A stretch of DNA of 64,000 nt, from the NCBI GenBank assembly GCA_025612375.1, contig JAAXKN010000013.1, positions 1 to 64,000 on the forward strand, written 5' to 3'. Shown one piece after another: positions 49,107 through 53,882 of this stretch. Source of the DNA: Ignavibacteria bacterium. Lineage in GTDB: Bacteria; Bacteroidota; Ignavibacteria; Ignavibacteriales; SURF-24. Position numbers and translations under genes: made by a program. Within the stretch, counting starts at the first letter, position 1, and every line of letters starts with the position of its first letter. The notes below the pieces were generated by a model that saw only the letters and a program-made list of their open reading frames with translations, had not been told where the DNA came from and ran no database searches.

Positions 49107-49808
49107 CTAAACGTTCACCATGTGTTCAGCTACTGATTGAAATATAAAAGTTCCGTCAGTCTTCCCGAGCAGGGGATCGCAGGCCCTTTCAGGATGAGGC
49201 ATCATGCCCAGCACGTTGCCGCGCTTGTTTATGATTCCGGCTATGTTAAGCTGGCTTCCATTGGGATTTAATTCTTCTGAAACCAGGCCATCGGCTGAAG
49301 AGTATCTGAAAACTATCTGATTATTCTCCTCAAGCTCCTTCAGTGTATCCGTCTCGGCAAAATAATTACCCTCGCCGTGTGCTACAGGGATTTTTAAGGC
49401 TCTTTTTTCAGCCTGAAAACTTGTAAATATAGTATCCGGGTTTTCAACCTTAAGATATACATCTTTGCAGACAAATTTCAGTGAATTATTCTTTACCATA
49501 ACGCCGGGAAGCAGACCTGCCTCAAGCAGTATCTGGAATCCGTTGCATATGCCGATTACAATGCCGCCGTTTTGAGCAAAGGAAATTACTTTTTCCATAA
49601 TAGGGGAAAACCGCGCAATTGCGCCGGTCCTCAGATAGTCGCCGTAGGAAAAGCCTCCCGGCAGAATAATGGCATCGCTGTTCTCTAAATCCCTGTCTTT
49701 ATGCCAGAGGAAAGTAACATCGTATCCAAGCTTTTTTTTCAAAGCGTAATATGCGTCATGGTCACAATTAGAACCCGGAAACACCACTACACCAAATTTA
49801 GGTTTCAT
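49107..49808 (-). CDS. purQ: FGAM synthase glutaminase subunit
   Basis: 233 residues, class I glutamine amidotransferase: catalytic Cys in [21 protein letters not shown], and [10 protein letters not shown] with the catalytic His-Glu dyad. It supplies ammonia to PurL in purine synthesis with PurS as the third subunit. Its ATG overlaps the purS stop by 4 nt. purL is not in the window. Confidence 0.97.
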
Positions 49809-50056
49809 TTCACCTCTTCTAAAGTAAACTCAAAGTCTTCCATTATCGGATTTGAAAGCAGCTTCGTCGAGTATTCATTAAGCTCTTTTTCTGCCGTCTG
49901 TCTGTCATCCACATTAACAAAAAATTCAATATATTTTCCAATTCGTGTCTGCTGTATGTTATTGAATCCAAGCATTTTTGCGCCCTGTTCGACGGCTTTT
50001 CCCTGCGGATCAACAATCGAAGGCCTTCTTTTTACTATAACAGTCGCTTTATACAA
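49805..50056 (-). CDS. purS: FGAM synthase subunit PurS
   Basis: 83 residues, normal size. [22 protein letters not shown] and the VGKYIEF-type segment ([10 protein letters not shown]) are typical. PurS bridges PurQ and PurL. Overlaps purQ by 4 nt. Confidence 0.96.
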
Positions 50057-50128: not shown

Positions 50129-50887
50129 TTAGTTCTTGCCGGCTGTTTCCTTAGGGCTTACCTTGTGCCCTTTGCCGGTCCTGAAAGCCAGTGAAAATGC
50201 ATGTCTGAAAATACCAATAAGAATCATCAAAATAAATACATAGAAGAGGGCTTTCCCTTCAGTGGCAATAATAATTATAAGAGAAATTACCACAAATGCA
50301 AAAGAATAAGGCCTCTCTTTTATCCCTTTCCCTGAAAATTTCGGAAGAGTCTCATACCTGATCTTACTTACCATGAGCAGTGAAAGCAATATGACGAGCG
50401 GGATTATATATGTATCGAAAGGCTCCTGATAGGAATTTCCGTTGAAGTATACCAGAACGTAGGCCGCAATTGTAATAGCTGAAGAGGGGATTGGCAGCCC
50501 CGTAAAATATGATTTGTCGAAGCCTACGAGCTGCACGTTAAAACGTGCTAGGCGGAGCCCGCCGAAAACCATCAGAAGTGAGCTTATTACGATGCCCAGA
50601 GCCCCCAGATGGTTTAAATAGGAGTGGTAGATCAGAAAAGCAGGGGCAACGCCAAAGCTAACCAGATCAGAAAGAGAGTCAAGCTCAACTCCAAACTCAC
50701 TGCTTGAATGTGTCAGACGCGCCATGATTCCGTCAAGTGCGTCAAAAACGGCTCCAATAATTATAAACATTGCCGCCTTTATGTAATCCTGTTCGCTGGA
50801 GTAAATTACTGACACAAAACCGCTGAACATGTTCAGCGAGGTAAACAGGTTAGGGATTACAGAGCGCGTTATTCTGATATTTCTCAT
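50129..50887 (-). CDS. pssA: Phosphatidylserine synthase
   Basis: 252 residues; a membrane CDP-alcohol phosphatidyltransferase with the catalytic motif DALDGIMARLTHSSSEFGVELDSL (D-G-x2-A-R-x8-G-x3-D-x3-D). It makes phosphatidylserine from CDP-diacylglycerol. Start overlaps the psd stop by one base; the two enzymes act in sequence. Confidence 0.96.
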   Translation of the reverse strand: MRNIRITRSVIPNLFTSLNMFSGFVSVIYSSEQDYIKAAMFIIIGAVFDALDGIMARLTHSSSEFGVELDSLSDLVSFGVAPAFLIYHSYLNHLGALGIVISSLLMVFGGLRLARFNVQLVGFDKSYFTGLPIPSSAITIAAYVLVYFNGNSYQEPFDTYIIPLVILLSLLMVSKIRYETLPKFSGKGIKERPYSFAFVVISLIIIIATEGKALFYVFILMILIGIFRHAFSLAFRTGKGHKVSPKETAGKN

Positions 50888-51534
50888 TACTTTTGATACT
50901 CAAATAAAATTGTTTGACCGGCAGTGACTTTGTCACCTTTTTTTACCTTCACCTGCCATTGTTTCGGGACCACAACGTCCACACGGCTGCCAAAACGGAT
51001 CATGCCGAACCGCTCTCCCATTTTAACATCGTCGCCCGGCTTTAATTCATAGACAATCCTGCGCGCAACATATCCGGCAACCTGTGTGAAGAATATCTTC
51101 CCGAACTTTGAATTAATGCCGAACTCGGCCCGCTCGTTTTTCTCTGAGGCTTTGTCGTGGCTTGCAATCAGGTACTCGCCATGTATGTACCTTAAGTATT
51201 CAACCTTGCCATTGACCGGAATACGGTTAACGTGCACGTTCAAAGGCGACATAAAGATCGAGATCTGCCAGGCTTTGTCCTTAATGTATCTGTCGTCAAA
51301 AACTTCCTTTACGAGCAGAACAGTCCCGTCGGCAGGCGAAACCGCAACATTGTCCTTATTTGGGGAGACCCTTTCCGGATCCCTGAAAAAATACAACGTA
51401 AATATAAGCAGCAGAGCGCCCAGGGCAATAAGAAAAAACTTAAAGAAGTTATTGTTTATTAAAATTCCTGCTCCGGCCAGTATAAAAACGATAATGGACA
51501 CAACACCAATTGTGGAATAACCGTACTTAGTCAT
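50887..51534 (-). CDS. psd: Phosphatidylserine decarboxylase, short PSD type
   Basis: 215 residues with an N-terminal double hydrophobic hairpin. VSPADGTVLLV, FMSPLNVHVNRIPVNGKVEY and the autocleavage site MIRFGSRVDVVVP mark the short PSD-A family; cleavage at Gly-Ser would generate the pyruvoyl cofactor. It makes phosphatidylethanolamine from the product of pssA. 4 bp from the PurC-like gene upstream. Confidence 0.96.
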   Translation of the reverse strand: MTKYGYSTIGVVSIIVFILAGAGILINNNFFKFFLIALGALLLIFTLYFFRDPERVSPNKDNVAVSPADGTVLLVKEVFDDRYIKDKAWQISIFMSPLNVHVNRIPVNGKVEYLRYIHGEYLIASHDKASEKNERAEFGINSKFGKIFFTQVAGYVARRIVYELKPGDDVKMGERFGMIRFGSRVDVVVPKQWQVKVKKGDKVTAGQTILFEYQK

Positions 51535-51538
51535 AATG

Positions 51539-52321
51539 CTAGTATTTTGTTAAGCTTAAAATAAATTCTGCGTAATCCTTGTAATCAGCTGATGTCTTTA
51601 TCTTGTAGGGATTTATATTCTTTAGGCCCGGATCCAGCGGCAGGACTTTCAGGCTGACAGGTGTGAAATCATCCACAATAAATATCTTCTCCTCATCTTT
51701 TCCAAAATAACAGCTTACCTCGGCTAAAAATGAGTTTCTCCTTTCAAAGTAAGACTTTAGGACAGCATTGACTTTTGTACAGATCCTTTTAATTACTTTC
51801 AGTTCCTCTATCGGAAGAATATCAAGCGATATCAGATGGCTTTCGGTTATAAGATTATCTTTAGAGCTCCCGTACCTGTATTCAAAAACAGGCAGAACCA
51901 GAAACGTGCCATCCGGCTTGTCAAAGATTTTACTTGTGCGCTTGTCTATAATGTTTGAAATTGTAATTGAAAACGGATAAGTGCTGTGTTTTTGCAGCAC
52001 AAGGCTGTTGTCTTCAACCTTCTTGTAGCCCGTAGGCACATTATAGGCATTCAGGTAGTCCAGAAAAAAAGAATTAATGATTAAATGCTTTTCCCCCAAA
52101 TCCTTGATCTTTGCTTCGGTACGGCTGCTGAGGCTTACAGAATCCCTGTATTCTATCAGTATAGAACTGTCTTCTTTTGCCTGAAAGACAACCTTCCCGC
52201 TTTTTTCCTGAACAATATTTTTGCTGTATTTCAAGACCTGATTACAAAAATTGTTTAACGCCCCGAAATTATAGAAATAGGCGTTCAAAGTCAAATACCA
52301 ACTTTTTGCTCTATTGTCCAA
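51539..52321 (-). CDS. Divergent PurC (SAICAR synthetase)-like protein
   Basis: 260 residues from a TTG. The order of conserved PurC blocks can be followed: EKSGKVVFQAKEDSSILIEY (PurC start, normally YEGKAK), LIINSFFLDYLNAYNVPTGY, PVFEYRYGSSKDNLITESHL, LKVIKRICTKVNAVLKSYFE and IFIVDDFTPVSL. The catalytic spots are altered: SNIIDKRTS replaces RN-x-AAGS, and DDFTPVSLKV replaces DE-I-[ST]-PD-x-x-R. It may be a pseudo-enzyme or have a new substrate. Its context psd-pssA-purS-purQ supports the purine link. A strong AGGAGG lies 28 nt upstream of the TTG without a canonical start at the usual distance, so the start is uncertain. Confidence 0.7.
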   Translation of the reverse strand: MDNRAKSWYLTLNAYFYNFGALNNFCNQVLKYSKNIVQEKSGKVVFQAKEDSSILIEYRDSVSLSSRTEAKIKDLGEKHLIINSFFLDYLNAYNVPTGYKKVEDNSLVLQKHSTYPFSITISNIIDKRTSKIFDKPDGTFLVLPVFEYRYGSSKDNLITESHLISLDILPIEELKVIKRICTKVNAVLKSYFERRNSFLAEVSCYFGKDEEKIFIVDDFTPVSLKVLPLDPGLKNINPYKIKTSADYKDYAEFILSLTKY

Positions 52322-52396: not shown

Positions 52397-52420
52397 TTAT
52401 TAATAACTGGGGTGACGTAT

Positions 52421-52687
52421 ATGGCTAAGACAGCAACAATCAGAGCAAGAATTGAACCGGAATTAAAATCCGAGGTGGAAAATATCTTCAAGAAGCTGGG
52501 GGTTTCAACTACTGAGGTGATCAGTATGCTCTACAGCCAGGTGAAGCTCAACAAGGGCCTGCCTTTTGAGGTGAAACTGCACCACAAGGCTGCTCAAGCT
52601 CAGCCTAAAGGAGTGCATACTCAGCCAAAGGGCGTGCATTCTCAACAGGGTGCTCAGAAAAGAAAAATGAAACGCGGAGTAAAATAA
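52421..52687 (+). CDS. Orphan RelB/DinJ-like ribbon-helix-helix protein
   Basis: 88 residues. The start TATIRARIEPELKSEVENIF and KKLGVSTTEVISMLYSQVKL matches the RelB/DinJ ribbon-helix-helix antitoxin N-terminus, then GLPFEVKL as in DinJ. The C-terminal tail contains repeated QPKGVH units (QPKGVHTQPKGVHSQQGAQ) and a basic end, in place of the usual toxin-neutralising segment. No toxin gene is adjacent on either side, so it may be a free-standing DNA-binding protein. GTG at 52412 is an alternative start. Confidence 0.75.
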   Translation: MAKTATIRARIEPELKSEVENIFKKLGVSTTEVISMLYSQVKLNKGLPFEVKLHHKAAQAQPKGVHTQPKGVHSQQGAQKRKMKRGVK

Positions 52688-52956: not shown

Positions 52957-53283
52957 ATGAAAGGCGGAATGCAGGGCATGCTAAAACAGGTACAGAAGAT
53001 GCAGGCCGAAATGGAACGCGTTCAAAACGAACTGGGCAATAAAACCGTTACTGAGGAATCGGGCGGCGGTATGGTAAAAGCTACGGTTAACGGAAAAAAA
53101 GAACTTATTTCAGTCAACATAGATAGTGAAGTTATTTCAGGCGGCGATAAGGAGATGTTAGAAGATCTTGTTGTGGCTGCCGTAAACAAAGCTCTGGAGT
53201 CAGCTGGCAAAATGGCTGAGGACGAAATGGCCAAAGTCACAAGAGGCATGCTTCCTCCGGGCATGAATATACCAGGATTTTAA
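52957..53283 (+). CDS. ybaB: YbaB/EbfC nucleoid-associated protein
   Basis: 108 residues, typical length. MLKQVQKMQAEMERVQNEL, then VKATVNGKKELISVNIDSEV and the Met/Pro-rich end GMLPPGMNIPGF. It binds DNA as a dimer near replication and repair genes. AGGAGG precedes the ATG and recR follows by 2 nt, the usual ybaB-recR pair; dnaX is not upstream in this window. Confidence 0.96.
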   Translation: MKGGMQGMLKQVQKMQAEMERVQNELGNKTVTEESGGGMVKATVNGKKELISVNIDSEVISGGDKEMLEDLVVAAVNKALESAGKMAEDEMAKVTRGMLPPGMNIPGF

Positions 53284-53285
53284 TT

Positions 53286-53882
53286 GTGCAGATAGCTGAA
53301 CCCTTACAAATTGCAATTGATGAATTAAGCAAACTGCCGACAATAGGGAAAAAAACGGCACAGAGACTTGCTATGTACCTCCTTAAAAGTGATAAAAGCG
53401 AGGTCGAGAATCTTACGCGCGCTCTGGGCGACCTGAAGAGCAAGATCCGCTTCTGCAAGAACTGCTTTAATTTGTCGGTGGAGGAGCTATGTGATGTGTG
53501 CCGTAATCCCAAAAGGGATCACAGCCTTATATGTGTGGTTGAAGAGGCAAGCGACGTTATTGCTATAGAAAAAACAAACGAGTATAACGGCCTTTACCAC
53601 GTGCTTGGAGGCGTGCTTTCACCTCTTAGCGGTACAAGCGCCGAGTCGCTTAAAATTAAAGAGCTCATTAGACGCCTTGAGAACAGTGAAGTTAAAGAGG
53701 TGATCCTGGCCCTTAACCCTGACACGGAAGGGGAAACCACCTCTTTGTACCTTGCCAGACTCATTAAACCTTTGGGCATAAAGGTCTCCCGTATTGCCCG
53801 CGGAATTCCTGTCGGAGGCGACCTGGAGTTTACAGACGAAGCTACCATAGGAAGGGCCGTAATTTCAAGAAACGCAATCTGA
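53286..53882 (+). CDS. recR: Recombination protein RecR
   Basis: 198 residues starting on GTG. HhH (LSKLPTIGKKTAQRLAMYLL), zinc finger C-x2-C...C-x2-C (FCKNCFNLSVEELCDVCRN) and Toprim (CVVEEASDVIAIEKT, LALNPDTEGETTSLYLARL) are complete. With RecO it loads RecA on single-stranded DNA at gaps. Followed by the methyltransferase after one base. Confidence 0.97.
   Translation: MQIAEPLQIAIDELSKLPTIGKKTAQRLAMYLLKSDKSEVENLTRALGDLKSKIRFCKNCFNLSVEELCDVCRNPKRDHSLICVVEEASDVIAIEKTNEYNGLYHVLGGVLSPLSGTSAESLKIKELIRRLENSEVKEVILALNPDTEGETTSLYLARLIKPLGIKVSRIARGIPVGGDLEFTDEATIGRAVISRNAI

Follow-up and report, generated by a model that had tools for sequence, protein, structure and literature searches.

The open reading frame at positions 51539-52321 on the minus strand of the window (the whole stretch of 64,000 nucleotides analysed here, from contig JAAXKN010000013.1 of an Ignavibacteria bacterium) raises the question of what a relative of SAICAR synthetase (PurC) does once its catalytic motifs have changed. 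A preliminary description had read the frame as PurC-like and offered two options, a pseudo-enzyme or an enzyme with a new substrate. An ORF call on the window recovers the frame, with a TTG start. The SAICAR synthetase HMM search suggested in that description gave a significant match to SAICAR_synt (PF01259; E 9.7e-18, 65.2 bits against the curated cut-off of 20 in Pfam), and the contrary outcome named there, no match to the PurC family, did not occur. A profile of the orthologue family matched eight PurC sequences in the PDB, with a best E of 4e-25. The PurC equivalog model TIGR00081 gave 51.5 bits against a curated cut-off of 189.9. By sequence profile, the frame encodes a PurC homologue. 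Its homology to short-type PurC (PDB 3nua, 3u54, 2ywv, 2gqr) spans about 220 residues and preserves the block order; it differs from short-type PurC in the loss of catalytic and substrate-binding residues, in its failure to reach the equivalog cut-off, and in a new conserved helix face. AlphaFold models from single- and two-sequence input had mean pLDDT values of 34.6 and 33.9, too low for use.

The N-terminus, previously described as longer than that of PurC, probably needs reassignment. Compared with the congeneric genome G001, the window differs at 1 of 90 bases in positions 52296-52207, as against mostly 2-12 per 45 in the rest of the gene. A TTG aligned with window position 52234 is present in relatives from family f1 (family numbers are labels of this analysis) and gives a protein of 231 aa; lengths across the family are mostly 203-237 aa. 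The real start is probably this TTG, which would place the PurC-like gene, the putative pseudoenzyme, at 51539..52234 on the minus strand and leave the rest, up to 52321, to the mechanical ORF. Because the upstream segment is nearly identical to that of G001 and contains a promoter-like element, and because 231 aa is the usual family length, the extra N-terminal stretch is most likely a start-codon artefact in which a conserved promoter region is read as protein.

The promoter-like element, TTGACTTTGAACGCCTATTTCTATAAT (52268..52294, minus strand), is nearly invariant relative to the congener, and elements resembling it were found upstream of many orthologues. With up to three mismatches allowed, the pattern occurs once in the genome. 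A general sigma-70 promoter was considered and found insufficient as a full explanation, given this single occurrence of the extended pattern in the window's genome. Of six other genomes, G002 and G004 have a close variant a short distance ahead of the PurC-like gene; the remaining four lack it but have looser versions upstream of their PurC-like genes.

To compare catalytic residues, we numbered positions on a human PAICS sequence that agrees with all 24 residues named in the paper that follows. The PAICS active site includes Gly16, Lys17, Glu97, Lys131, Asp137, Lys191, Glu193, Asp207, Asp212, and Arg215 (PMC9376930). All ten are identical in the 36 intact short and 19 long PurCs that we compared. 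The 48 order-level orthologues have generally lost Gly16, Lys17, Glu97, Lys131, Lys191, Glu193, and Asp212, including Lys131, Lys191, and Asp212 of the ATP, aspartate, and CAIR sites. As for the Mg ligands, Glu97 is not kept and the Asp137 column is mixed (Asp in 23 of 48); the Asp207 column is likewise mixed, and most others are scrambled. In the window, the ATP loop YEGK(A/T)K is represented by QEKSGK in place of YEGKAK (52193..52210, minus strand), at positions that the residue table and the gained-conservation analysis show to vary across the clade. Both motif replacements of the preliminary description were borne out, with SNIIDKRTS (51932..51958, minus strand) in place of RNxAAGS and DDFTPVSLKV (51644..51673, minus strand) in place of DExSPDxxR. 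Every less diverged changed family has also lost several active-site residues. The fewest losses, often conservative, are in f10, the least clear of these families, where Glu97 is kept and Asp137 is mostly Glu. As judged from these alignments, the window homologue has lost Mg, ATP, CAIR, and aspartate residues.

The search for a canonical purC in the same genome, also proposed earlier, was successful: an intact PurC of the long type, scoring 262.8 bits, lies on another contig (C12). This pattern extends to the class. By hand count, none of the 46 genomes whose locus encodes an intact short PurC has another PurC, and a changed copy is accompanied by a long PurC elsewhere in 58 of 63 genomes; these counts are not independent because the changed copies form one clade. 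The five exceptions are all drafts; three are less than 85% complete and two consist of about 110 and 170 contigs. It is from the latter two, G014 (L251) and G048 (L250), that one could argue that the changed protein has remained a SAICAR synthetase despite its unusual residues, since they have estimated completeness of 99% and 96% and the degenerate copy is the only PurC seen in them; PurC homology and the purSQ neighbourhood point the same way. However, the Mg, ATP, and aspartate ligands are lost and the window's genome has an intact PurC, and in drafts of that fragmentation the long copy may be unassembled, which makes this explanation extremely improbable. Either a contig is missing from G014 and G048 or they are real purine auxotrophs.

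Relatives of the gene were found in 49 of the 96 genomes of the order sample, the window's own genome being counted in both numbers, and the scan of genome contigs gave one congeneric relative only. Confinement to this order was rejected, as eleven families of the class have degenerate copies. In a sample of 296 genomes from across the phylum, no match outside the class scored above the range of intact PurC. Family f2 and several others have lost the gene, and it is very divergent in some genera.

The genes adjacent to the PurC-like gene are, as previously described, psd, pssA, purS, and purQ, all on the same strand according to ORF calls and profile matches. The phosphatidylserine decarboxylase gene psd (50887..51534) begins 4 bases downstream of the PurC-like stop codon and is followed by a pssA-like CDP-alcohol phosphatidyltransferase gene (50129..50887), purS (49805..50056), and purQ (49107..49808). 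On the other side, divergent on the plus strand, are two conserved neighbours that we take from their sequences to be ybaB and recR (52957..53882). Between ybaB and the PurC-like gene, a RelB-like antitoxin ORF (52412-52687, plus strand; PF04221, E 6.4e-9) occupies the same place in the window and in its congener. The order across the collected loci is ybaB-recR (divergent), PurC-like gene, psd, pssA, purS, purQ, and gatA, apart from small losses and contig ends. The most constant neighbours, for intact and changed PurC forms alike, are psd and pssA, and the PurC-like gene is directly upstream of them in every recovered neighbourhood where the gene is intact; purS and purQ are not always adjacent.

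Besides the window, 47 order-level loci have psd directly downstream of the PurC-like gene, at a distance of -11 to +9 bases in 46 and of 98 bases in the other. This tight spacing, together with the promoter-like element upstream, is what one would expect of a leader ORF whose stop codon is coupled to translation of psd and whose protein is itself of little importance. Yet the amino-acid-level constraint is similar to that of the neighbours, a gained motif has been kept over eleven families, and the sister family f2 has psd beside ybaB with no PurC-like gene between them. As the main explanation, a leader ORF therefore seems unlikely; a leader role may exist alongside that of a pseudoenzyme because the spacing to psd is tight.

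The linkage to the phospholipid genes is older than the loss of the motifs. In f8, f12, and f15, related families in which short-type PurC occupies the same genomic place as the window gene, an intact short PurC with YEGKAKK, VVRNIAAGS, DFKLEFG, and DEISPDTCR is encoded just upstream of psd. In 30 stretches from these families psd lies downstream of the intact purC, with most gaps within 33 bases and a few that are larger or depend on start assignment. The arrangement purC-psd-pssA-purS-purQ is also present in L237, a genome that belongs to a different class of the phylum. Because other families of the class, and one genome outside it, have an intact purC upstream of psd-pssA, the linkage is, on the evidence of gene order, ancestral and older than the loss of the catalytic motifs. 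The preliminary wording that the gene is "now" co-transcribed with phospholipid genes was mistaken in implying a recent linkage; gene order and spacing are the grounds for presuming co-transcription.

Changed copies are found in f4 and f14 (in part), f10, f13, f18, f20, f22, f23, and f24, mostly directly upstream of psd in the recovered neighbourhoods. All degenerate copies form a single clade with SH-aLRT support of 98, or 94 with the helix columns removed, in quick trees whose long branches make details unsure. The changed copies thus represent essentially one transition followed by several losses. Since an intact copy stands alone and a degenerate copy is accompanied by a long PurC, the ancestral purC appears to have decayed in place after the long type took over, and we infer that the gain of the long PurC preceded the decay of the short copy.

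What was left behind is not junk. With dN/dS estimated by NG86 for close pairs only, leaving pairs saturated at synonymous sites uninterpreted, the PurC-like gene gave values of about 0.03-0.15 in most pairs, including 0.08 for the window and its congener and 0.03-0.07 for further close pairs, and psd and pssA gave similar values in the same pairs. The exception is genus g16 (L080 and L081), at 0.23 versus 0.02-0.03 for its neighbours, which indicates weaker constraint. The PurC-like gene is under purifying selection. A slowly decaying, functionless pseudogene might be expected from the family-level losses and the strong divergence in some genera, but the frames of the collected orthologues are open, dN/dS is well below 1, and new invariant residues have appeared, which makes a pseudogene highly improbable.

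Where these new residues lie bears on the choice between the two options raised at the outset. Relative to the 46 intact short PurCs, 15 positions have gained conservation in the degenerate clade, at thresholds of our own choosing. Eleven of the 15 fall within residues 171-197 of the 260-aa frame (Fisher p 1e-8) and the gained positions tend to group on a single helix face (permutation p 0.007), p-values that are optimistic since the sequences are related by descent. This segment, RxxSKxNAVLKSFFERR (51731..51811, minus strand), is a predicted helix, an assignment that rests on homology and low-confidence models. Its Arg194 is invariant in all 80 degenerate sequences and is found in none of the 46 intact ones. 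The comparison suggests a shift of constraint away from the cleft and onto the surface of a helix, and the direction of this shift is clear.

An active enzyme with a new substrate would instead have kept the cleft and built a new active site from Asn123, the DKRxAKIF stretch, His162, Arg179, Lys183, Arg194, and Arg195. Strong purifying selection is consistent with this, as is a new DKR.AK motif that order-level orthologues share where PurC has AAGS, and inositol phosphate kinases belong to the same fold class (PMC9376930). Pseudoenzymes can also regain chemistry through migrated residues, which counts against reading the protein as dead (PMC10211241). However, the ATP loop, Lys131, and the Mg ligands have not been preserved, and the clade has no invariant acidic residue. 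The gained positions are mostly on a helix face where true PurC varies, rather than in active-site columns. We consider a new enzyme unlikely. The two options of the preliminary description were well chosen, and the pseudo-enzyme is the better supported: the catalytic motifs are missing by sequence and selection acts on the protein.

Our preferred reading, which we hold to be probable, is that the gene encodes a retained pseudoenzyme, a dead PurC with a non-catalytic binding or regulatory role. In this scheme, a short-type purC headed an ancestral purC-psd-pssA-purS-purQ cluster, and the gain of a long-type PurC by the lineage would have made it redundant. The sites for ATP, Mg, CAIR, and aspartate would then have been lost from the redundant copy, which would have stayed at its position in a non-catalytic role that depends on a single remodelled helix surface. 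The face of this helix could bind another molecule and thereby modulate it. Against such retention is the dispensability of the gene, since f2 and several other families have lost it. By linkage, the most plausible candidate partner is Psd or PssA from the same gene cluster; PurS and PurQ, whose genes are not adjacent in every case, are less likely partners. A bolder and speculative version, to which we give little weight, would make the dead purine enzyme a dedicated subunit of phosphatidylethanolamine synthesis (Psd/PssA), with a regulatory or scaffold function. It might use a non-catalytic contact that the intact ancestral PurC had already made. If true, purine and membrane-lipid synthesis would be linked physically or in regulation.

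Psd, like S-adenosylmethionine decarboxylase (AdoMetDC), is a pyruvoyl enzyme. The AdoMetDC of trypanosomes is activated by prozyme, a catalytically dead paralogue (PMC5201418), and the window gene would resemble prozyme as a dead homologue of a metabolic enzyme kept for a putative non-catalytic role. Prozyme, however, is a paralogue of the enzyme that it activates, whereas the putative partner of the window gene is unrelated to it. Bacterial pseudokinases and other pseudoenzymes have likewise lost motifs while retaining homology and selection (PMC12599244, PMC10211241). In the paper library searched, we found no pseudoenzyme of the SAICAR synthetase family and nothing relevant on a purC-psd cluster or on purC in Ignavibacteria. 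With intact, partly changed, and heavily changed forms at one genomic position, the route from housekeeping enzyme to pseudoenzyme can be traced by lineage, and the locus offers a test case for whether an enzyme made redundant, here by the arrival of a second PurC, is thereby free to turn into a binding protein. It also indicates a possible link between purine and phospholipid synthesis. Annotators should check the active site before giving the name PurC to PF01259 matches beside psd in these bacteria.

Two further observations concern families f8 and f2. In L245-L249, from some genera of f8, the only PurC match is a third type of about 340 aa (MGSVKDLK...), which is a further replacement of PurC; where checked (L257, L260, and L261), f8 genera with this type have no short purC upstream of psd. 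In family f2, which has no PurC-like gene, a different recurring element (AAGAAATTAA...AAAATATTA.ATTTG) is present upstream of psd (L082-L108).
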